In this document: positions 22,828 to 36,800 of the stretch, piece by piece
How the letters are laid out: every line of letters starts with the position of its first letter
Position numbering within the stretch: position 1 is the stretch's first letter
Assembly (NCBI GenBank): GCA_021300155.1
Contig: JAJTID010000017.1
Location: forward strand, 62,001 to 126,000
Length of the DNA stretch: 64,000 nucleotides
Reading direction: 5' to 3'
DNA from: Pirellula sp.
GTDB lineage: Bacteria; Planctomycetota; Planctomycetia; Pirellulales; Pirellulaceae
Program-made: the position numbers and the translations under genes
The notes under the pieces: generated by a model
The model's database searches: none
Told to the model about the DNA's origin: nothing
What the model saw: only the letters and a program-made list of their open reading frames with translations

Positions 22828-23027
22828 CGCATTTGTTTTACCATTGGACGGCAGAATTAAATCAACAGGCCTGGTTCTATGGGCCTTCGAAGTAACTCTA
22901 CGCATGCAGGTAAATGTCGAATAATCGGAATTCTTGCCCTGCAAAACTGTGCAATCGGTGCAAACTGCCCTATCAAACAGGCTAATAGGTTGTAGGGTTC
23001 TTGACTGTCTCTTTTACCGCCCCGATT

Positions 23028-26000
23028 ATGAAATCCCCGCAGGCAGCAGGCGGCCGAGCGAAACCAAACGATCGATGGCCAACTGACATAGTGAACCAGC
23101 CACTTGAATCTGAAACAATGATGCAACCAGCTTCGAAAATCACGCAAGTCAGTCCAATCCATGTCGTAGAGTGCAGCGTTTCAAGTCGAGGATTCTCTTC
23201 CTCGCTTTATGGACGAGAGGACTCGATTTCTCAGGTCCAAGCCTTATTTGATGTCGTCTGCCGTGGACAAGGCCAAACCTTACTTTTGCCTGGACCTTCA
23301 GGAATCGGAAAGACTTCGTTAGCACGAGTCCTCAGAGAACCTGTGATTGCGTCGAATGGGCTGTTTCTCGAGGGTAAGTTTGATCAGTTTGGCAGAAACG
23401 TACCCTTCGTGGCCTTTCGACAGGTACTCTCGCAGTTTTGCCAGACGATTCAAAAAGACACACCAGTTGTCGTTGAGCAATGGAAGGCGCGTATCATCGG
23501 AGCACTCGGTGATTTTGCGCAACTATTGATCGATTTGGAACCTGCATTCGAATCCATCCTCGGCCCCCAAAAACCGATTGCCAGAATTAGTCCGACGGAA
23601 TCCAAACACCGTTTGGCAAACGTTATCCGTTCCTTTTTTGAAGCAATATGCAAGCCCGAACATCCCGTTGTACTTTTTCTAGACGACTGGCAATGGGCCG
23701 ACCCTGCTTCCCAAGAATTGCTCTCCATACTTCATGACGAAGCCCCCCTTCGCTACTTGCTCATTATCGCCGCCTATCGTGAAGATGAGATAGACAACGA
23801 TCATCTCTTTGCAACGATACTAACCCAATTACATTCGAAACATGATCACGTTGCAACGATAGAACTCACCAATCTTACCTCTCAAGATCTTAGCCGACTC
23901 ATTGAAGAAAAGCTCGATGGTAAAATCGAGTCTGTCTCTGATATCGTCCAATGGGTTTTGGATCGAACATCTGGCAATGCCTTCTTTAGTTTGGCTTTTC
24001 TTGATTATCTGCTGGAGTCTCAACAACTTTATCTTCACGATGGCGATCGTTGCTGGCGACTCGACTTACATCGCATTCCGACGGACTATTGTGCGGACGT
24101 TGTCGCTTGGTTCGGGAAGAGGTTGGAGGCACTCGACGAAGGCAGTCGTGAGTTATTGTCCTTGTCGGCTTGTTTAGGGCATCGTTTCGATGTCGAGACA
24201 TTATCGATCATCAGCGGACGCAGCGTCGACGATTGCATTGAAATCCTGACATCCGACTCAATGTCGAAGTTTGTCGTCGCAGATACATCGAGATCTAACG
24301 GTAGCGATTGGCGATTTCTCCATGATCGAATTCAGCAGGCTTCCTACAAGTCCATCAGCACTTCTATTATTGCATCAGTCCGCTTCGACATTGCAAAGCT
24401 TTTGCTTGGTCGATTAAGCGAAAACAGTCTTTCCGAGAGATTGTTTGAAGTCGTTGAACACCTAAACTACGGACTGGACCTTATCGATTCGTACACAGAA
24501 GCCGTTGAGGCGATCGAGCTTAATTTACTCGCAGCAGAAAAATCGCGAGGAGCCGCCGCCTACCGAACTGAATTGCAGTTTTTGCATTGTGCCAAACGTT
24601 TACTGAACGATGATAGATTTTCGTCGATGATTTGGCAATGCAATTCGAAAATGGCTATCCAATTGCTGAAAGAACTTGGCGAAAGCGAGTTTCTGGATGG
24701 GAATCATGAGGTCGCACTGGGGTACGTTCGCGAAGCTGTAAACCGCTCGGAATCGGCCATTGAAAAAGCAGAATTGTTAACTATTGCGATTGTCCAGTAC
24801 ACACTACTTGCAAAATATCCACAGGCAATAGCGACCGGCCGAGAAGCGCTTGCTATCCTTGGGGTCTATCTACCCCTGGATGATTACACGAATGCACGTG
24901 ATCACGAGTTAGCGGAAGTACGACTTGCTGTTCAAGAGAGAACATTCGAAGACTTGAGTTCCATGCCGATCATGGCGGATCCGCGTTGGTGTACGGTGAG
25001 CAAAATCCTGATTACCATGGGTCCTCCGTGTTACCGTTCAGACCAGAGTCTTTGGAGCGTCATTGTTCCCAAAGTAGTGAACTTGACATTGACTCACGGC
25101 CCTATTCCGCAAGTTGGATATAGCCACACAGCCATTGCGGGATTGCTCATGTGGGTTGAGGATGATGTCGCGACGGCCTTGGGATTTAGTGATCTGGCGA
25201 CTCGTTTGATGACAGAAAGATTCACTTCCTCGTCAGACCAAACGGTGTTTCATTTGATGGCTGGTAGCTCGGCATGTCATTGGTTCGGTCACTGTATGCG
25301 AAGTTCTGAACACTACGAACTCGCATACAAGATTGGGTCGAACGCGGGCAACCTTCAGTACGCTGCATATGCCTTCGGCCACAATATGTACTGCCAGTTC
25401 TTCCAAGGAACCAATCTCAGGATTCTCGCTCAAGAGACAAAGAAATGGTTAGCGTTTAGCCGGTCTCGTCGCAATCAGTGGGCCGTCGATCTACTCGATG
25501 CTGGCGCAAGAATAGTGGAGCAAATCTCGTCTATAGATTTGAATCCCGGAACGCAACCCAGCTCAGAGTCGGATTTTATTCATCGTGTGGAAACGAATCA
25601 GAACCAACAAGTGCTTTGTATCTATCATGTGATGCAGTCTTTCACCAGATTGGTTATGGAGGACTTTGAAAGTGCGCTAAGGTACTCGGACAAGGCAGAT
25701 GCGAACATCAGTACGGTTGGTACGCAGGGACTGTTAGCATGGTCGGAACATGTCGCGATTCGAAACATTATTCGAGCATGCCTTTTCAACCAAGTGGACT
25801 TGGAAATCCAGGGTCAGTGGCGTACGGAATTCGAAGCTTCTATGCAGCGATTGACCATTTGGTCGAAGCATGCTCCAGAGAGCTTTGACCACAAGCGTCT
25901 TTTTCTCATGGCCGAACTAGCACGACTCGACGGCCATCCGCTAGAGGCAGGGCGTCTTTACGACGAGGCGATTACGGCCGCGAAAGTTGGAGGTTTTCTA

Positions 26001-28445
26001 CAATGGGAAGCCTTGGCGAACGAACGATCTCAACGACTTTGGCAATCTGTGCAAATGCCAGATCTCGCTAGTTCATATCGCCATTATGCCTATCAGGCCT
26101 ACAGTCGATGGGGAGCTGTTTCCAAGATTGAAGCACTGGAATATCAGCTGCGCCAAACACTTGAACAACAGTTGCGACTGATTGAGCATAACGCAGGCGT
26201 TGAGGACGAAGAGAGAGCTCTGACCTCAAACCAAATCATTGCTCGACAGATTGATCGACTTCGCAATGAAAACTTGGAACTACAAGGAGCAAAGCAACAA
26301 GCCCAAATGCGTGCACACGCAGAAGAGTTAGCTCAAGCGACGGATAGACTCCGCACGGAAGTTGTGAAGCGAAAGGAAGCGGAAAAGGCACTTCGGGTTC
26401 AGAACGACATGTTGGAGGAAAAAATCTCCGAACGAACCCTAGAACTGAAGACAAGCCGTGACAAACTGGTCGTCCTGGCCGAGCGATTGGAATTGGCGAC
26501 GCGTGCTAGTGATATGGGGATTTGGGATTGGGATATACGTACGAATCAACTTCTCTGCGATGATTCGCTGTGCAAGTTGTATGGTATGGAGAAAAACCCA
26601 TTCGGTTTAACTGTGGAGGGCTGGTTAGGCTATATCCATCCATCCGATCGAAATCGTATCCAACTCGCTCTAGAGCGTTCGCGGCAGTTAGCTGTTCCGT
26701 TCGTCGAAGAGTTTAGGGTTCGAAAACCCAATGGCAAGATACGAACCATCAAAGCCGAAAGGCAGGTTATCTGCGATTCGGCTGGCGTTCCAATTCGAAT
26801 GATTGGTATCAGTTATGATATTACAGAGAAAAAACGTCAAGCAATGCTTCAGCATCTGCGTCAAGAGGTAGCGGAACGCGCCGCACGCGGGCGACCGCTT
26901 GACGAGGTTCTTTATTTTCTAACGAAAGCGGTCGATGAACTTGAGCTCGGAATGAGCTGTGCTTTCACCAATAATTCTCTAGACAGTCAGCCGACCAACC
27001 GAATAACGTTCCCTCATATTGGCTTTAATGGACAATGGCATGGTCCACGTCATCAATGGTCGGTCGAAATCTATTCGTCGACACGTTCAGTTCTTGGCTG
27101 TTTGGAGTTCTTTAGTGAGCGTGAAGAGAAGCCCGATCAAGCAGACGTGGACTTCGCAACTGCCCTTGCCGAAATCGCTGCCATCGCGATCGAGCATACG
27201 GTCTACATTGAAACACTCGAACGTGCACGAGAGAATGCTCATGTTGCCAATCAAGCGAAGAGCGAGTTTCTAGCGAACATGAGCCACGAAATCCGCACAC
27301 CGATGACGGCGATTCTAGGGTACACGGATCTTCTGCTCGATGCAGGAAACTCCGACTTCGATCCTGAACAACGCATTCGGTCGGTCAAAACGATCCAACG
27401 GAATGGTGAACATCTTCTGGCAATCATCGATGACATTCTCGATTTGTCGAAGATAGAATCCGGGAAGCTGGTCGTCGAATCAATTGTCTACTCGCCAATC
27501 ACGATTGTCGAGGAAGTATTAACGTTGATGACAATACGAGCTGCGGAGAAGGGGATTGTTTTGGACTCGGTCTTTGAAACGAGTCTACCTGCGATGATTC
27601 AAACCGACCCAACTCGACTGCGCCAAATCATTCTGAACTTGGTTAGCAACGCAATCAAGTTCACGGAACAAGGAAGCGTTCGAGTGGTCGTTCGCTTTGT
27701 TGCCGGTGATGCACCGACGTTAGTGTTTGATGTCATCGATACCGGACGTGGGATGAGCCAAGATCAAAAGGAACGACTGTTCCGCCCGTTCGTTCAAGCT
27801 GACACGTCGACGACACGAGAGTTTGGTGGCACGGGGCTTGGACTGACGATTAGCAAGAGATTGGCCGAAATGATGGGTGGTAACATTTTCATCGTGGATT
27901 CCACTCCAGGTGTCGGGTCACGATTCAGAGCGACTGTTTCGATCGGGAACATTGCTGGAGTGGAAATGGTCTATCCATCTTGTCCCATTTCGACTCCAGA
28001 AAAAGAAAAGCGGACTGTCGTATCGGCTCCATTGGAAAAGCCGCTCGCTGGCTATCGAATTCTGTTGGCAGAAGACGGACCTGACAATCAGCGCCTCATC
28101 GCTTTCATCCTCAAGAAGGCTGGCGCGCAGGTCACTGTAGTCGAGAATGGCAAGCTGGCTGTAGATGCATGCTTTGAATCCGTTAATCGCGAAGAACCGT
28201 ATGATGTAGTCCTTATGGATATGCAAATGCCTGTTATGGATGGTTACGATGCAACCTCTTACCTGCGAGACCACGGCTATCACCGTCCGATCATCGCCTT
28301 AACAGCTCATGCGATGGATGGTGATGAAGCGAAATGCCTCGACGCGGGTTGTTCGGCCTACACAACGAAACCGATCAACCGCGAGCTTTTGATCGCAAAG
28401 ATAACATCCATCGTATGCAACGGCCGCCCCGAACTTTGTTCTTAA
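23028..28445 (+). CDS. Giant ATPase-PAS-GAF hybrid histidine kinase
   Basis: A predicted cytoplasmic signalling protein of about 1800 residues with no clear membrane segment. Order: AAA/ORC-type ATPase with GRED box, Walker A GPSGIGKTS (about 89-97) and Walker B VVLFLDDWQWAD (about 214-225); a long helical, TPR-like region (about 430-1060); a coiled coil; PAS (about 1150-1270); GAF-like region (about 1275-1400); HisKA with SHEIRTPM (His near 1420); HATPase with N box NLVSNAIKF and GTGLGLTI; and a C-terminal receiver with phospho-Asp in VLMDMQMPVMDG (near 1730). Relatives often carry a protein kinase ahead of the ATPase; that part is absent here. TTG 23001, ATG 23028 and ATG 23118 are possible starts. 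The stimulus and output are unknown, and no DNA-binding partner is adjacent. Confidence 0.88.
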   Translation: MKSPQAAGGRAKPNDRWPTDIVNQPLESETMMQPASKITQVSPIHVVECSVSSRGFSSSLYGREDSISQVQALFDVVCRGQGQTLLLPGPSGIGKTSLARVLREPVIASNGLFLEGKFDQFGRNVPFVAFRQVLSQFCQTIQKDTPVVVEQWKARIIGALGDFAQLLIDLEPAFESILGPQKPIARISPTESKHRLANVIRSFFEAICKPEHPVVLFLDDWQWADPASQELLSILHDEAPLRYLLIIAAYREDEIDNDHLFATILTQLHSKHDHVATIELTNLTSQDLSRLIEEKLDGKIESVSDIVQWVLDRTSGNAFFSLAFLDYLLESQQLYLHDGDRCWRLDLHRIPTDYCADVVAWFGKRLEALDEGSRELLSLSACLGHRFDVETLSIISGRSVDDCIEILTSDSMSKFVVADTSRSNGSDWRFLHDRIQQASYKSISTSIIASVRFDIAKLLLGRLSENSLSERLFEVVEHLNYGLDLIDSYTEAVEAIELNLLAAEKSRGAAAYRTELQFLHCAKRLLNDDRFSSMIWQCNSKMAIQLLKELGESEFLDGNHEVALGYVREAVNRSESAIEKAELLTIAIVQYTLLAKYPQAIATGREALAILGVYLPLDDYTNARDHELAEVRLAVQERTFEDLSSMPIMADPRWCTVSKILITMGPPCYRSDQSLWSVIVPKVVNLTLTHGPIPQVGYSHTAIAGLLMWVEDDVATALGFSDLATRLMTERFTSSSDQTVFHLMAGSSACHWFGHCMRSSEHYELAYKIGSNAGNLQYAAYAFGHNMYCQFFQGTNLRILAQETKKWLAFSRSRRNQWAVDLLDAGARIVEQISSIDLNPGTQPSSESDFIHRVETNQNQQVLCIYHVMQSFTRLVMEDFESALRYSDKADANISTVGTQGLLAWSEHVAIRNIIRACLFNQVDLEIQGQWRTEFEASMQRLTIWSKHAPESFDHKRLFLMAELARLDGHPLEAGRLYDEAITAAKVGGFLQWEALANERSQRLWQSVQMPDLASSYRHYAYQAYSRWGAVSKIEALEYQLRQTLEQQLRLIEHNAGVEDEERALTSNQIIARQIDRLRNENLELQGAKQQAQMRAHAEELAQATDRLRTEVVKRKEAEKALRVQNDMLEEKISERTLELKTSRDKLVVLAERLELATRASDMGIWDWDIRTNQLLCDDSLCKLYGMEKNPFGLTVEGWLGYIHPSDRNRIQLALERSRQLAVPFVEEFRVRKPNGKIRTIKAERQVICDSAGVPIRMIGISYDITEKKRQAMLQHLRQEVAERAARGRPLDEVLYFLTKAVDELELGMSCAFTNNSLDSQPTNRITFPHIGFNGQWHGPRHQWSVEIYSSTRSVLGCLEFFSEREEKPDQADVDFATALAEIAAIAIEHTVYIETLERARENAHVANQAKSEFLANMSHEIRTPMTAILGYTDLLLDAGNSDFDPEQRIRSVKTIQRNGEHLLAIIDDILDLSKIESGKLVVESIVYSPITIVEEVLTLMTIRAAEKGIVLDSVFETSLPAMIQTDPTRLRQIILNLVSNAIKFTEQGSVRVVVRFVAGDAPTLVFDVIDTGRGMSQDQKERLFRPFVQADTSTTREFGGTGLGLTISKRLAEMMGGNIFIVDSTPGVGSRFRATVSIGNIAGVEMVYPSCPISTPEKEKRTVVSAPLEKPLAGYRILLAEDGPDNQRLIAFILKKAGAQVTVVENGKLAVDACFESVNREEPYDVVLMDMQMPVMDGYDATSYLRDHGYHRPIIALTAHAMDGDEAKCLDAGCSAYTTKPINRELLIAKITSIVCNGRPELCS

Positions 28446-28491
28446 GTAACTTAGGTAACTAGAGCCCTAACTTGCAAACCAAGACACAGCG

Positions 28492-29089
28492 CTAGCTCGG
28501 TTCACTTTCCGTGGTCAAGAGTTGTTGCACCAACTCGCAGAAGTGTTTTGCCGAAAAAGGTTTGGGAAGCAACGCACTTACTCCCACTCCTTCAGCCTGG
28601 TCTAGAAGCTCTTCGTCAATAAATCCAGAAGTGATAACCACGGGTAAGTCGGCTCGAATTTCACGGACTTGCCTCGCTACTTCCAGCCCAGAAAATCCCG
28701 GCATATTGTAGTCCGTCACGACTATTTCGAAGTCGTTGGGAGCTTCGCGAAGAGACTTTAAAGCTTTAGATTGGTCCGAGTATCCATATACCTGAAACCC
28801 CAAATGGCCGAGTAAGTAGACGATCGACTGCAGGACCTTTTCGTCATCATCCAAATACAGGATCCGACACTTTGTCGCTGCCTGCGATACGGGCGTCGCA
28901 ACGTTAGGCGATTTTTCTACATCCTCGGATCCAACCATCTGTCTTGATGCGATGTCAAAGTCCTGTATGGTTGTGGGAGGAAGATAAATTGTAAATGTTG
29001 AACCCTGGCCGGGTTGGCTCTCGACAACGATCTCGCCCTGGTGAGCGAGAATGATGCCATAGACGACGGCTAGCCCAAGCCCCCAAGCC
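28492..29089 (-). pseudogene. Receiver-domain end of a frameshifted hybrid histidine kinase
   Basis: This is the 3' part of the kinase gene that begins at 30353. Past an 8-bp duplication the original frame resumes as LAVVYGIILAHQGEIVVES, finishes the HATPase domain, passes a linker and enters a receiver domain (CRILYLDDDEKVLQ, phospho-Asp in VVTDYNMPG, Lys in LLPKPF). Frame continuity across 28939-29070 was checked by hand: the codons run unbroken into MVGSEDVEK. An ATG at 28938 could give a free 148-residue receiver protein, so a stand-alone response regulator may still be made, but no clear ribosome site precedes it. Confidence 0.8.
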
Positions 29090-30353
29090 CGGTTCCTTCG
29101 CCTACAGGTTTGGTGGTAAAAAACGGTTCGAAGATGCGTTCCATTACATCAGCGTTCATTCCAACACCATTGTCGGAAAATGTTAGCCGCACCAGTTTGA
29201 TAGGATGCTGTGTCGTAGAAGATTGGTCTTGGCTGGATCGCGAATGCAATCCAGCATTTGAAGGCTCTGCAGGATTTATAACCGTGTCGAGATGAATTCG
29301 TATAGAACCGGGCTTGCCTTGCATCGATTGCACAGCGTTGTTGACAAGGTTGATGACAACTTGTTCGATCTGCATAACATCTGCAAGAACCTTTGGTACT
29401 GCTGGCGCGTAGGTAAACGAAAGTTCAATGCGGGCAGGGATCGTTGATCGCAGAAAGCGGATACTGTCTGCAAGGACGGGAGCCAATGAAATCGACTTTC
29501 GGACTGTCGCTTGCCGACGGCAAAAAGAGAGTAGTTGCTTTACCAATTCGCGAGCCCGCTCACCCGCAGCTTGGATTTCCTCGACGCAATGAGACAACTT
29601 TGGGTTTGTTTGACTGCTAAAACTTCGAGCCAGCTCCGAATTGCTCAGGATAACAGTCAGAATGTTGTTGAAGTCGTGTGCGATGCCACTAGCGAGCCTG
29701 CCTATGGCTTCCATCTTCTGAGCTTCACGCAGTTGGGCCTCAAGGGAGTTTTTTGCGGTCTCGGCCCGAATTCGAGCATCGATATCCACTAAAACGACAC
29801 GGTGGGGCGCCGAATCAGCATCTCCTGCAGCGAGCGAGGCTGACAATTGGACCCATTTGTAGGTTCCATCGCATCGCTGCAATCTTAATTCACAGGTCTG
29901 GGGCTGGGAGGTCGAGATCAGTCGGTTTCGTAACTGGTAAAATGCAGGATTGTCTTTGTTGACGATATACATACTAAAGCGCTGATGAATTAAAGAACGT
30001 GGGGTAGTACCCAACATTTCCGCCAAGGTGCAGTTGGCCTCTTGAATCAGTCCACCTGCGTTGACGAGGCTGTAACCGACAGGCGCACGATCGTATAGGT
30101 CGAGATAGCGTTCGCGGCTTTCTTCCAATTCCAATTGGGACTGGCGAAGTTCTTCGTTTTGGATTTCCAGTTCGATCTGGTGAACCTTTAACTCACGAAT
30201 GACGTGCAGACCTTCTTCGGGCGAGATAGGCATTTCATCAGCGGCTGGTTCATTTTCCTTCTTTTGATACGCAGCTATTGCTCGCTCGCGCAAAGACGGA
30301 CTGGTGGATTGCGAAGCCCAATCACTGGCGGCAGGCAATTTACGATGGGTCAT
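29070..30353 (-). pseudogene. PAS-histidine kinase, truncated by frameshift
   Basis: The 5' part of a PAS-type hybrid histidine kinase, 427 residues before a premature stop. It has a charged N-terminal helix (LKVHQIELEIQNEELRQSQLELEES), a PAS domain (about 85-205), HisKA with GIAHDFNNILTVI, and most of HATPase (N box VINLVNNAVQSM, DNGVGM, GEGTGLG). The frame breaks inside the G2 ATP-lid motif: after GTGLG it reads GLG and stop, instead of GTGLGLAVVYG. The cause is a duplicated GGGCTTGG at 29075-29090. Loss of the end of the ATP-binding domain should abolish kinase activity. The ATG overlaps the stop of the gene upstream (ATGA), so the two formed an operon. A sequencing error is possible but an exact 8-bp duplication is unlikely as one. 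Confidence 0.8.
29075..29090 (-). repeat. Exact 8-bp tandem duplication causing the frameshift
   Basis: CCAAGCCC at 29075-29082 and again at 29083-29090 (GGGCTTGG twice on the coding strand). Removing one copy restores GTGLGLAVVYG and one frame from 30353 to 28492. The pattern fits replication slippage. Confidence 0.9.
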
Positions 30354-31084
30354 GATTGCGGCTCAAGTCTCTCTGTAGTGGCGATCGCATAAACTTGACC
30401 CGATTTACTCCTCAATGCAGTAGCGGTGATACGGACGCTGAGAACATCGCCACTCTTGGTAAGTCTTTGTGTTTCATAGGGTTCCAGCACCTCTGTACTG
30501 AGTTTGGCTACGATAGCCAAACTCTCGTTCTGGAGCGCTGGGGGAATCCGATCGCGAACATTCATTTGAAGCGCTTCCTCTTCGCTCCACCCGTAGATCC
30601 TGGTGGCGCTGGGGTTCCAAGCGATAATGCGACCTTCGAGATCATGAACGGTAATCGCATCGTAGGCATCGCGAACTACAACGGCCAATCGCAATTGCCT
30701 ATTCGCAATCTCTAGTGATTCTTCGGTACGCTTCATATCCGTTATATTAACAAAGACGATAACGACTCCTTCAATGACGTTCTCAATGGTGCGATATGGT
30801 TTTATTCGCATTTGAAACCAATTACCGTCGGTGGTTTGAACTCTTCTATCTTGAGACTCGAGAGTGTCGAGCACCTTTTTCGCATCTGCGACCAAACTGT
30901 CGTAGCCGACAAGATTCGAGACAATTTGCCCCACTGGTCTTCCAACATCGCTGCCGATCAAATTGATGATCTGAGCCATTTTAGGTGTGAATCGAAGAAT
31001 ACACAGTTTTCGATCGACGAAGATGGTGGCAATACCAGTACCTGCAAGCAGATTGTTCATGTCGTTGTTCAAACGCGACAGATA
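30350..31084 (-). pseudogene. PAS-domain end of a broken CheB-CheR-PAS gene
   Basis: The C-terminal part of a CheB-CheR-PAS signalling protein. Recognisable sequence starts at LSRLNNDMNNLLAGTGIATIF (from about 31081), gives a first PAS (PAS_10-like, to VNITDMKRTEES) and a second PAS (LAVVVRDAYDAITVHDLEGRIIAWNPSATRIYGWSEEEAL...ATTERLEPQS). The ATG nearest upstream (31105) lies at the scrambled junction, and the frame beyond it (to 31252) is antisense to an inverted piece of the same gene, so the longer open frame is an artefact. The stop overlaps the start of the downstream histidine kinase (ATGA). The fragment probably makes no functional protein. Confidence 0.75.
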
Positions 31085-31401
31085 TTCCGCTATTTCATTT
31101 TGCATTGAATCCGAATGGCTTGCTATTTCTGGGATCTTCCGAAGGCATTGGGGATTTTCATCAGCTTTTTGATGTCCTGGACCGCAAGGCAAAACTCTAT
31201 CGTCGCAAACCGGACTTTGAAGGGATGCCACGCACAAAACTGCCACGCTCATCGGCCATCGCTCCCGCGCCGATCGATACTACCGTGTACAGGACAAAAT
31301 CATCCATGCCGATCAGATTGCCACTGCGAGAACTAGCCGAACAAACGGTTCTATCATTGCTTTCACCCGCAGCAGCTCTGGTTAATGACAAAGGAGATAT
31401 T
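31081..31401 (+). pseudogene. Inverted internal segment of the CheB-CheR-PAS gene
   Basis: Read on the forward strand, this piece encodes IPLFHFALNPNGLLFLGSSE, then IGDFHQLFDVLDRKAKLYRRK, and later LPLRELAEQTVLSLLSPAAAL and VNDKGDI. That is the end of a CheR methyltransferase domain plus the linker that normally follows it in CheB-CheR-PAS proteins. The flanking pieces (CheB to the right, PAS to the left) are on the reverse strand, so the segment is inverted within its own gene. GATATT occurs at both ends (31081-31086 and 31396-31401). There is no stop inside the inverted reading frame, so the event appears recent. Confidence 0.75.
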
Positions 31402-32239
31402 TCAAGTACTCTTCATGCGAATCAACTTGATTCACCGCCATTCGGCGTTCGATGCGTCGATCAATGGTATTTGGCTTGTAGAAAGAAAAGTCGTGCCCAG
31501 CGCGTGTTTTGAGTAGGACAAAAATCTTCTGAATTGTATTCTCAATTTCAACAGTTCTCTTAACAGGAAGTTGAGCTTGAGTACTGGCAACTCGAGATGT
31601 AAACGCTAGCAGTTGGGCAGGCATATCGCCGATGTCCGAGACAAAATCGACGGCACCGGATTGAATCGCGCTACGCGGCATACCGTCAAACTCCGTCGAC
31701 TCCGTCGACTGCACCATCACCAACCCACCCTCGTTCTTGATCGCACGCACACCTTGGCTACCATCGCTGCCCGTGCCTGACAAGATAATGCCGACTGCGA
31801 ACTGACATTGATCCTGAGCAAGGGAACAAAAGAAATAGTCAATAGGCAATCGCTGACCACGGGGTTCCGCTGGATGCAGCAATTGAAACGTACCATTCAA
31901 GATAGCCATATCATGAGTGGGCGGTTTGATGTAGACGCAGTTGGGACGAACCGACATTCCATCTTCAACTTCATACACCGGCATGGGAGTGTAATTACGG
32001 ATCAGATCGGCCAAAATACTCGTGTGGTTGGGTGCAAGATGCTGCACGAGAACAAATGCCATATCCGGATTCACGTCCGGTGGGAAACTGCGAAAGAAGC
32101 GTTCAAACGCGACTAGCCCTCCCGCAGAGGCACCGATCCCCACGATTGGGAATCTAGTTTTCGTCGACTCCTGATGACTCGGCCCCGATGGTTGCGGCGG
32201 ATTAGCGGATAGCCCGCCATTCGGAGGTTCAGTTGGCAT
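31394..32239 (-). pseudogene. CheB methylesterase part of the broken CheB-CheR-PAS gene
   Basis: The N-terminal part of the gene. The CheB domain is complete, with the catalytic triad Ser in GIGASAGG, His in LVQHLAPNH and Asp in LSGTGSDGSQG. It continues to the beginning of the CheR N-terminal domain (AGHDFSFYKPNTIDRRIERRM...DSHEEYLKYL), where homology stops and the inverted segment begins; the frame then ends at 31382. ATG 32239 (MPTEPPNGG) is preferred over 32290. Intact relatives demethylate and methylate receptor-like partners; here most of CheR is missing. A truncated CheB-only protein could still be made, with unknown value. Confidence 0.75.
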
Positions 32240-32350
32240 GATTTGGTAATTGCGAAGAGTCGAGCTAGGACGGTAAGCACACGACAGCACCCATGGTCCA
32301 CCCGCTTGTGAATTCGGTCAATATATCCCAATTCGTCGTGTACGTCTCGC

Positions 32351-32390
32351 CGCCACAATAAAGGACACGCACATCCTTTTGAGCCAATCC
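32351..32390. repeat. 40-bp dispersed repeat, copy 1
   Basis: Matches 38165-38204 in the same orientation with one mismatch (C versus A). It lies 89 bases beyond the end of the transposase remnant, between it and the broken CheB gene. It could be an insertion sequence end. Confidence 0.8.
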
Positions 32391-32478
32391 GACACATCCG
32401 ACAAAAGTGCGTTCATTACAAGCATTTTCGATTGCTGTTTTGTAGAAGCGATGAGTTTTTGAGCTATTTGTTTGCAGT

Positions 32479-33398
32479 CTATCGTGGCAACATCGCCATC
32501 ATTGGTTGATGGCTCGTTAGGTTGCTGAACCATCCGATCAAGGCTGCGAGAATCGCCCTTAAGCTCGACATCAGGCGATTGGAGCTTGCGGCCCGCAGGA
32601 TGTTCCAACCAGCGACCTTAAGTAGTAACGACTGGAATACTGACGCTTTGCCTCGGACCGGCAGGCGTCCGAGACCGGTCACCCGTTTCAATAAACTGTT
32701 GGTCGATTCTATGCCACTTCGTCGGCGGTAGTTGATCTTGAATTCTTCTGTCTCTTGTTTCTTGCGTCGCTGGCTCAGTCGTAATGGCTTAGCGTGGATC
32801 GTCACAACCTTCCAACCATTGGAGTAACGTACTGGGCATTTCGATTGCAAGGAGCATTCATCGCACGTCTCTGGAAAGTGCAGTATCTCCATCTTGCCAA
32901 TACCATGATGATAGTGTGAGCGATGAGGCGTTTTCCCCGCTGGGCAAGATGTAATGAACGGATTGATGTGCTTCTTTCCGTAGCCGTCGATCACTTCACG
33001 TTCTTCGAATGGAAAATCTGTTTCAGTGCAGACTTTTGACAAAGCTTTTTGTTCGGAGCATTTACCCGGCGCGGGTGCCTCAAGATCTACACCATACCGT
33101 TTGCAAAGACAGAAATTGTCATCGCCCCCATAGGACTTCAGGAGGCTCAAGGTAAGCGGCTGCATCTAAGCGTCTAAGCGGGATAAAGAAGCTTTTGATG
33201 GCGACTCCCATTAATCGTGTCCGGCCGATCGTAGCCATGTTGCTTTGCACATGCGTTGAATCGAGTCGCTGCCGAGAAACGTCGAGTTCCAATCGTTCGA
33301 CAAGCTTGACCGTTACCTGCTGCATAATCTGGCTGGCCAGTTCGTCTTCACGAAAGAGGGCCGCGAATAGCTCGCGATGGATGGCTGGCACCGATTGA
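32479..33398 (-). pseudogene. Transposase remnant, DDE (IS1182/IS5-like)
   Basis: A decayed transposase on the reverse strand. From about 33398 the reading frame gives LFAALFREDELASQIMQQVTVKLVERLELDVSRQRLDSTHVQSNMA, then breaks near 33165. A second frame continues as MQPLTLSLLKSYGGDDNF, then ITSCPAGKT, CDECSLQSKCPV and the DDE C-terminal signature INYRRRSGIESTNSLLKRVTGLGRLPVRGK, ending at 32479. The expected stretch between the two parts looks shortened, so there is a frameshift and probably a deletion. The 5' end is lost against another element remnant. No intact terminal repeats were identified. Confidence 0.75.
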
Positions 33399-33423
33399 GT
33401 TGAATCCGAGGGTGACGGGGCCG

Positions 33424-33729
33424 GCGGTGAATAAGAATGGAGTGCAGGCAAGCGATAAGAGGTTCTTGGATATGAGCTTAGAAGACTATCTCGCGCTGCT
33501 GTACTGGACCGGCAGGCAAGGGCGTGATGACAAGAAGGGCAAGATTGCGGCCGACCATGCTCCGATTTTGGCAAAGCTGGGGATCGCGTAGGGGATGTGG
33601 TGCGATCTGGTCTGGAACTTTAAGCAGTACTTTGGCAGGAGTCGCGGGCAGGGCTCACCGGATCGGATGCGAGAGGAGTCGATTCTAGGACTACACAAGT
33701 TTCAACCAGGTCAGAAGAAAGTTCGTTAG
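33424..33729 (+). pseudogene. C-terminal remnant of a second transposase-type protein
   Basis: The forward frame gives MSLEDYLALLYWTGRQGRDDKKGKIAADHAPILAKLGIA, a stop at 33589-33591, and then continues in the same frame as GMWCDLVWNFKQYFGR...MREESILGLHKFQPG to 33729. From memory of planctomycete proteins, the DYL-LL-WTGRQ-R-K-G-I pattern belongs to the C-terminus of Y1/REP-associated transposase-like proteins. The N-terminal catalytic part is absent and the nonsense codon confirms decay. The family assignment is from recollection and should be treated as tentative; that it is a remnant is clearer. Confidence 0.5.
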
Positions 33730-33861
33730 TGCTTTGTTTGATCGCTTCCGATTCGTTTTGGTTTCGTTGCTATGGCGCGGATGCAATCGCGCACCACGAG
33801 TGATGCAATGTCAGCCTTTGCTACACAACCGCTCGCATGAAGCTTGAGATTTGGCGGGCGA

Positions 33862-36800
33862 TCAGCGCTGTCGTGGAAAAGTTGGAACATTGAATTGAGG
33901 GACAGATTGCGGGATGCCTTTTGCCATCGAGTGCTCAAGAAACTCGTCTTTCGATAGTTGTTCATCGCCATTTACGTCTATTGTGTCAAAATTCGCAAAT
34001 GGGGCTTCGTCTTTACTAAGGAAGCCATCGGCGTTTTTGTCGAATGAAACGACTAAATCGAGGATCCCTTGAATTCGCAGTTGCTTCTGTTGTTCGCCTT
34101 GAATGGCAACACGTTCGACGATCGGCAATAAACTTTCAGCACGGCCACAGATAGCTATTGCTAGTATCTCTTGCTTAGAAACGACTTGCACTCCATTTGA
34201 AGTCAATACTGCTGAGGGCCAAGAGATCTTGATCTGAAGAGGATTCGGCTGAGCTCTTGGGTTTGTGGGCTGGCCTTTTGTTAATTTTCTCATGGCGTCT
34301 ATAGCTTTGGCTTCCGTCGCTTTTTGAATCAAACGAATGTCGTCCATACAAGCGTCTGTTGCTTGAAGGCGCTCTGTTAAGTCAAGCAGCTCAAGTACGA
34401 GAATACACTTCGCTGGATTGGGCGAGGACACGGTTACCGATGTGCCAAGCTGCGTTGGAATGAATTGTGGAAGTTTGAACGCTGGCACGGTCAACTCACC
34501 GAAGACTTGGTCGACGTCAATCATATCGTGAAGGAGTTGCGGCGTTTTTGCCAGTTCATGCAACCGCTTGGCAAGTACTGGAATGAGTTCGGCAGATCGA
34601 TCGAACCGTTCGCGTCCCTTGCTATCGCTATCACTTAACAAACTGGTCAGCAGCATGGCAGATTGAGCGACATGCTTTTCGGAACTAGTCATGTCAAGAA
34701 AGTAGGTTGTCGCCTTGGACTCGGAGAGGCTTACGAGTCTAGGATTCCATGGAAAATCACCTCTAACCGCATAAGCAAAAGGATGAGGAAGGGGAGTAAA
34801 TTGAAGCCAAAAACCGGGCCCCAATTGAGAGTGTGTGCTTATGAGATTGATGTATTCCGTTTCAAGGGATTGCTCCAAAACCATCTCGGTCAAGGTGCGC
34901 CAAACATATACGCCAGCCGATTCTACAATCTCACGACTCGTGGAGCTATTCGCGGACAGAGTGTTTTTTGCGATCCAATCCATGATTGGAAGTTGCTCTA
35001 CGCTAAGCACACGTTCACGTCGATCTCCTGGCCTCGTGCTGGATTGAAGTACTCTTTGGGTCCACGTTTCTTTGTTTGCGTCTAGCGTTTTCACCAAATG
35101 ACGTTCGTAGTTTTCGCGAACGTCAATAATCTTTCGAATGCAAGTAAATGCCTCATAGTCATTTGCGGGTGAGTGAGAGGGAAGTGACGCTAGAATCGCT
35201 TCGGCGATTCGATCTCGATTGGAAGCCGTAGCGAGTGCTTGAATAGCTTCGAGCGAACTCTGTATGGCTTTCTCACTGCGTTCGCGATCGAATTCGTCCA
35301 ACCACATCGAAAGAGTCTTGCCGTCATACAGTGCCTCACTTGCGGCAGGGAGCTTAGCTTCCGTGGAAGCGATTTCATTCGTCGGAACAGGTGGCGATGT
35401 CGTTGAATGTTTACTAGTCGATAACACTCTGGCGATTACCGTTTCGCCACGTTTGATCTCGATCGTGTCTCGGTCCAATTGAAATCGATCGCTACCGGTT
35501 CCGATCGAAACTTCGTAGTTACCTGCGTAGAGTCGCGTCGTATTCGCGCCGGGAAGAAGCTGAACGGAATCGTAAATCTTTCCTGCTTTCGAAACTTTGA
35601 TTTCAACATTAGCATCGATCGACTCAATAACCAGTTGGCCTTTCTGTGTCTCGAGGGTGATGAACACACCTGCCGCGAAGAGAAACGCGAACGCGGCTGC
35701 CGTTGCTGCCCAGGGAAGGAATGGTCCTCTACCGCCTCTCGATGCGGTCTTTGCAGGAGTGGCTGTTTCTCGTGTTGCGAGACTCGTCAAAGGTGGCGCG
35801 ATGCGCATCGGTTCCTTCACGGCGCGTTCATCAGCCTCTCGCATTAGCGACGACAAATCGGCCTCCGATGTGAACTTAGCCAGCATCTCAGCCGCATGTG
35901 CCGCACTTGCAGGTCGAATCGCGGGATCGCGAGCCAGGAATCTGCCAACCAATTCGACCAACTCCTCTGGAGCATCGGGCCGTAGCGTTGCCAGACTTGG
36001 CGGTTCCGTTGTTGCCAATAATCGCAACTTCGCGAGTGGAGACAAATCAGGAGTTGCCGCCAACGGAGCGCGTCCACAGAGTAGTTTGAACAATGTTGCA
36101 CCCAGTGAATACAAATCGGCTCGATAGTCGACGGAGTCGGCGCGTTCCGCTTGTTCGGGAGCCATATAGTCAATCGTTCCCATCAATTGACCGACAGTCG
36201 TTAGTTCAGCGGAGGCTTCGTCCCATAGGCTGATTTGTGCGAGGCCGAAGTCCAAGATCTTGACCTGGCCGCTTCGACTGAGCATGAGATTCGATGGCTT
36301 GATATCGCGATGCACGATCCCGGCAGCGTGCGCGTGCGAAAGGCCGAGGGCTACCGAGTGCATCAAGCTGCAAGCGTTCGCGATCGAGAACGGACCTGTC
36401 AAGCGAGCCAATCGGCTGAGGTCCATACCATCAATGTACTCCATGACTAAAAAATGTACGTTGTCGGATTGGCCAGCGTCTGTCGCGCTGATGATCGACG
36501 GATGGTTGAGTGCGCCGGCGGCTCGAATCTCGCGCTGGAATCTCGCGGTGAATTGATCGTTGCGAAAGGGTCGAGGGGAGAGGAGCTTGATGGCAACTTG
36601 CTTTCCCAATTGCCGATGCCGCGCCAGGTAGACGGCACCCATGCTTCCATATCCTAACGATTCGATCAATTCGTAGGGACCCACGAACTTGGGCGGCTTT
36701 TCAGGAACGGATACCGATGGAGGTGCATCGGGTTGATGTCCTATAGATTTTGATTTCGCGAGTGCATATTGAATCACAGCGTCATTGGCCCCACCTTGCT

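Follow-up and report, generated by a model that had tools for sequence, protein, structure and literature searches.

The window analysed here is the whole 64,000-nucleotide stretch of DNA, and the locus of interest within it contains the remains of a gene for a CheB-CheR-PAS signalling protein, flanked by a histidine kinase gene downstream and a transposase relic upstream. As the intact comparator, we used the protein of a same-genus genome (G002), which is encoded in a single frame of 1022 amino acids (locus L038, 7492–10557) and in which a Pfam search identifies the CheB_methylest, CheR_N, CheR and PAS_10 domains and a second PAS domain. A tblastn search with this protein against window positions 27001–35000 yielded three separate matches, which underlie the central features of the following list, given in the direction of the gene:

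32482–33574, minus strand: relic of a DDE transposase in two overlapping ORFs, upstream, single copy in the genome (DDE_Tnp_1_6 in 32482–33165)
31394–32239, minus strand: CheB methylesterase domain and the first part of CheR_N (tblastn to G002 residues 23–293, 57%, E = 5e-96; Pfam CheB_methylest 1–174 of 174, CheR_N 3–49 of 53)
31084–31401, plus strand: inverted piece with the end of CheR and the linker (tblastn to G002 residues 468–578, 43%, E = 9e-21; same-genus matches of 45–53% in four orthologues)
30350–31081, minus strand: PAS_10 and the second PAS domain with the original C-terminus (66% to G002 residues 777–1015; Pfam)
29073–30353, minus strand: PAS-HisKA-HATPase kinase, the frame of which ends early (ORF, Pfam)
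29074–29090, minus strand: 8-bp tandem duplication at the kinase frame shift (sequence)
28495–29148, minus strand: rest of the HATPase (HATPase_c 62–110) and receiver (Response_reg), in the other frame (Pfam)

The third tblastn match extends from G002 residue 762 to 1015 (31129–30368, minus strand, 63%, E = 2e-91); its first 15 residues, however, look like a chance extension, and homology becomes clear only from the Leu-Ser-Arg codons near 31081 onwards. All six intact queries (G002, G024, G012, G016, G023 and the C116 paralogue from the same genome) recovered three pieces, of which the middle one lies on the plus strand; with G012 as the query, the middle match ended at 31368. This arrangement is the one proposed in the preliminary description of the locus, which placed CheB and PAS on the reverse strand and the CheR end with the linker on the forward strand, and the alignment to intact relatives identifies the forward piece as CheR-related; no Pfam family was detected in it at a threshold of 0.001. 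Two of the six queries (G016 and C116) additionally gave a weak coiled-coil match (E = 4e-4) at about 30003–30356, within the downstream kinase, a protein that itself contains a coiled coil.

Compared to G002, the stretch between CheB and the inverted piece is short of 174 amino acids, comprising most of CheR, and 198 amino acids, comprising the post-linker region and the long coiled coil, are missing between the inverted piece and PAS, as the preliminary description had also maintained. Across 11 relatives, the corresponding gaps amount to 172–175 amino acids on the CheB side and 180–232 on the PAS side, where the value for G012 is off because the end of its linker is misplaced. Thus, an internal segment is inverted and the sequences on both sides of it are absent relative to the intact relatives, which is the anatomy of a deletion-inversion-deletion. 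The same architecture, from which all three pieces derive, is intact in G002 and G024 and occupies one long frame each in G012 and G016, the G012 gene being cut by a contig end. In contrast, the gene in the window has lost the CheR SAM-binding domain and the coiled coil, and its middle piece lies on the other strand, so that it does not form one frame. It is a broken derivative of a CheB-CheR-PAS fusion, not a member of that group.

The two junctions of the inverted piece differ:

31393–31402: right junction, at which the bases fit the codons expected from both parents, with an estimated microhomology of 6–10 bp (codon comparison with relatives; chance test)
31083–31084: left junction, with an overlap of 0–1 bp (codon comparison with 11 relatives)

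Read on the gene strand, the right junction leads from Lys-Tyr-Leu (AAA TAT CTC) into the reverse complement of Gly-Asp-Ile (GGA GAT ATT). On the linker side, the expectation is firm, Gly-Asp-Ile being present in 8 of 10 usable relatives (G012 was set aside here because of its misplaced linker end). On the CheB side, it is softer: among 11 relatives, Tyr is found in 7, Leu in 8 and Lys in 3, and the next base is C in 10. Because these CheB-side residues vary, the overlap of 6–10 bp that could have been available for pairing is an estimate. Of 40,000 random inverted joins generated for each of G002 and G024, 0.17% and 0.19%, respectively, had at least 6 shared bases; given two junctions, the probability of one such overlap is roughly doubled. 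At the left junction, the codon of the residue preceding Leu-Ser-Arg starts with T in the window, whereas 10 of the 11 relatives have G there, and the codon that precedes the middle piece has T as its second base in all 11 relatives and A in the window. These mismatches limit the overlap to 0–1 bp.

The hexamer GATATT, to which the preliminary description drew attention at both junctions, is indeed found at 31081 and at 31396, but only the right junction shows signs of bases common to both parents. The window has no excess of the hexamer (22 occurrences against 27.4 expected). Since the left overlap is at most a single base, the copy at 31081 appears to have been created largely by the join, and the occurrence of the hexamer at both junctions is, on this comparison, mostly coincidence. 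Similarly, the proposal of template switching at microhomology has support at the right junction, with its estimated 6–10 bp, but not at the left one, with 1 bp or less.

An inverted segment next to the self-complementary ATAT might also be viewed as an invertible on/off switch (inverton). Among the 10 inverted pairs of at least 8 nt detected in 30800–31700, none bounds the segment, and the flanking coding sequence that a switch would have to retain is missing. Furthermore, re-inversion at GATATT/ATAT leaves the frames unrestored: the coordinate sum, 62482, equals 1 modulo 3, whereas the flanking frames need 2 modulo 3, which agrees with an earlier check by hand that re-inversion restores neither frame. 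Even with the frames restored, most of CheR would still be absent. On the combined evidence of absent bounding repeats, frame arithmetic and absent flanks, we rejected the switch as highly improbable, in line with the original reading of the locus as decaying.

We consider it probable that the locus is a recent pseudogene of a CheB-CheR-PAS-PAS signalling protein that arose through one complex deletion-inversion-deletion, most likely a replication error. Under this model, a single mutation would have flipped a piece of about 318 bp, with the loss of about 520 bp and about 590 bp on either side. The growing strand would have left CheR_N at its Lys-Tyr-Leu codons, annealed over an estimated 6–10 bases to the Gly-Asp-Ile codons on the opposite strand and been extended in reverse for about 318 bp, before it switched back to the original strand immediately ahead of PAS, where hardly any base pairing, or none, would have been involved. 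Such a pair of strand switches in the course of DNA synthesis would account for the inversion, both deletions and the microhomology on the right with one event; the lack of microhomology at the left junction speaks against this mechanism. The more specific claim, that one replication event, in which the strand switched twice at points about 318 bp apart, left its scar in the natural chromosome of a bacterium with no detectable Ku, is put forward tentatively, with chances somewhat short of even. The variation of the CheB-side residues at the right junction is the reason why we go no further than this in either case.

Alternatively, the structure could have been assembled in several separate events, either an end-joining inversion following two double-strand breaks and resection, or a short inversion that preceded or followed independent deletions. 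The left overlap of 0–1 bp resembles a blunt join, as such a scenario would have it. However, more steps are required than with one event, and the genome has no match to the Ku profile PF02735, which is evidence against classical end joining; in the control search, a match was found in Bacillus subtilis, 1 of 14 controls. We regard a sequence of separate events as unlikely.

Evidence of a different kind comes from the neighbouring genes. Directly downstream of the scrambled gene, and on its strand, the histidine kinase gene is broken by a shift in frame at the 8-bp tandem duplication, with positions 2–76 of the HATPase profile in the first frame and 62–110 in the second. In G002 and G024, the CheB-CheR-PAS gene is followed on the same strand by a one-frame kinase-receiver gene; these kinases are only 28% and 21–39% identical, respectively, to the window kinase and hence are architectural rather than close comparators. 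Among the independent signs that the locus is decaying, the broken kinase is the best. Within the upstream transposase relic, the ORF at 33122–33574 has no Pfam match; same-genus relatives of the relic are present in G009 (74%), G012 and G015 (80–81%, partial) and G017 and G013 (40–43%). A 23-nt inverted pair with 74% identity (32280–32302/33853–33875) is only suggestive of its ends. Elsewhere in the window, 23001–28445 is occupied by a large open plus-strand ORF of 1814 amino acids that, by eye, appears to combine an AAA-type ATPase with PAS, histidine kinase and receiver ends; its last 400 or so residues are 48–49% identical to the neighbour kinases of G002 and G024, compared to 28% and 21–39% for the broken kinase.

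The second lesion bears on the possibility that a chimeric molecule or a misassembly produced the inverted piece and that the cell keeps an intact gene. The draft assembly comprises 260 contigs and has 3.96% contamination, and chimeras formed during MDA are reported to be mostly inverted, with a deletion in between and short complementary stretches (PMC1855051), a pattern that the window resembles. However, the chimeras of that account are laboratory artefacts in single molecules, whereas both joins discussed here stand in an assembled contig, and an artefact would have had to enter the consensus of that 179-kb contig twice. Moreover, the assembly contains neither an intact allele nor a loose copy of the lost CheR, and the neighbouring gene bears a different, unrelated lesion. 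Two different lesions in adjacent same-strand genes are expected under relaxed selection, which makes a pure artefact less likely; we consider an assembly or amplification artefact unlikely.

Several observations pertain to the age of the event. None of the three homologous stretches contains a stop, as the preliminary description had pointed out. Under neutral substitution, the chance of finding no stop is 0.31 at 0.02 substitutions per site and 0.047 at 0.05. Of 70 residues that are invariant in 13 relatives, the window retains 68 (2.9% lost); when the same test was applied to the 13 relatives, the losses ranged from 0 to 9.3%, except for 15.0% in G012, where 9 of the 12 losses are gaps caused by the contig end that cuts the gene. 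The retention of invariant residues and the absence of stops support the earlier impression of a recent event, and taken by themselves would indicate either that the event is recent or that the CheB and PAS pieces are still under selection. The latter would amount to domain fission with retention of function, in which a smaller, still working protein would be made from the CheB piece and perhaps also from the PAS piece: both pieces are open, nearly all residues invariant among the relatives are kept, and the full CheB_methylest profile is covered. This open, conserved state would also be compatible with residual function. However, recency explains the conservation equally well and the partner kinase is broken too, so that fission appears improbable to us.

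Among 26 other same-genus genomes, only 4 have matches of at least 54% to the CheB piece, and the genome itself retains a CheB-CheR-PAS-kinase fusion on contig C116 along with three further CheB genes. That the gene is accessory in the genus and its neighbour is broken implies that its loss is tolerated. Judging from these patterns, the locus is a recently decaying one and accessory in its genus, and the biological meaning of the event would be the loss of an accessory signalling locus.

The middle piece appears to share its ancestry with the other two. In a search of 27 same-genus genomes, including its own, matches were found in 14; the best non-self ones were in G024 (53%), G002 (45%), G016 (46%) and G012 (46%), and the same four genomes lead the same-genus matches for the CheB and PAS pieces. 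The lower identity of the middle piece is normal for this region because G002 and G024 are 55% identical to each other there, compared to 61% in CheB and 67% in PAS. Among 35 intact sequences ranked by score against the middle piece, the four same-genus orthologues took places 2, 3, 4 and 6; a sequence from a Verrucomicrobia-titled MAG (L060) came first for this piece, second for CheB and third for PAS. The genome's own C116 paralogue, 34th for the middle piece and no higher than 34th of the 35 for CheB or PAS, was rejected as the source of the middle piece. Relocation of the lost CheR to another place in the genome was likewise rejected, a search of the assembly for it having returned only paralogues (4 matches, the best with 53% on C116).

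Short inversions and multinucleotide mutations have been ascribed to polymerase template switching in the human/chimpanzee comparison (PMC8755829) and in yeast (PMC8604942), as have quasipalindrome mutations in E. coli (PMC7202029). With the mutations described in these reports, the window shares a short inversion and shared bases at a junction; it differs from them in the loss of both flanks, in one junction with essentially no shared bases and in the absence of a bounding quasipalindrome. A listings-level literature search brought up no comparable event in a bacterial pseudogene from nature, although this is only weak evidence that there is none. Neither the kind of mutation nor the kind of gene is new, and the case looks like ordinary decay with an unusually clear anatomy. 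Nevertheless, it offers a clean, apparently fresh case of a multi-domain signalling gene dying by what seems to be one complex rearrangement, with both breakpoints readable to within a few bases, and, if confirmed, would give surveys of template-switch mutations a useful example from bacteria. If the single-replication-event reading is correct, complex template-switch mutations of the type known from eukaryotes are a natural cause of gene inactivation in bacteria, too.

An inverted internal piece was found in none of 86 related loci, a biased sample that consists of 80 loci kept from 106 relatives and 6 fetched loci; in 85 of the 86, a single match spans the region from CheB to the linker. In 28 loci there is an opposite-strand match, but it lies outside the gene and covers CheB, starting at about G002 residue 30. 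In these 28 Hymenobacter-titled loci (L072, L079, L082 and 25 others), a second CheB-like gene lies in the opposite orientation directly before the CheB-CheR-PAS gene.
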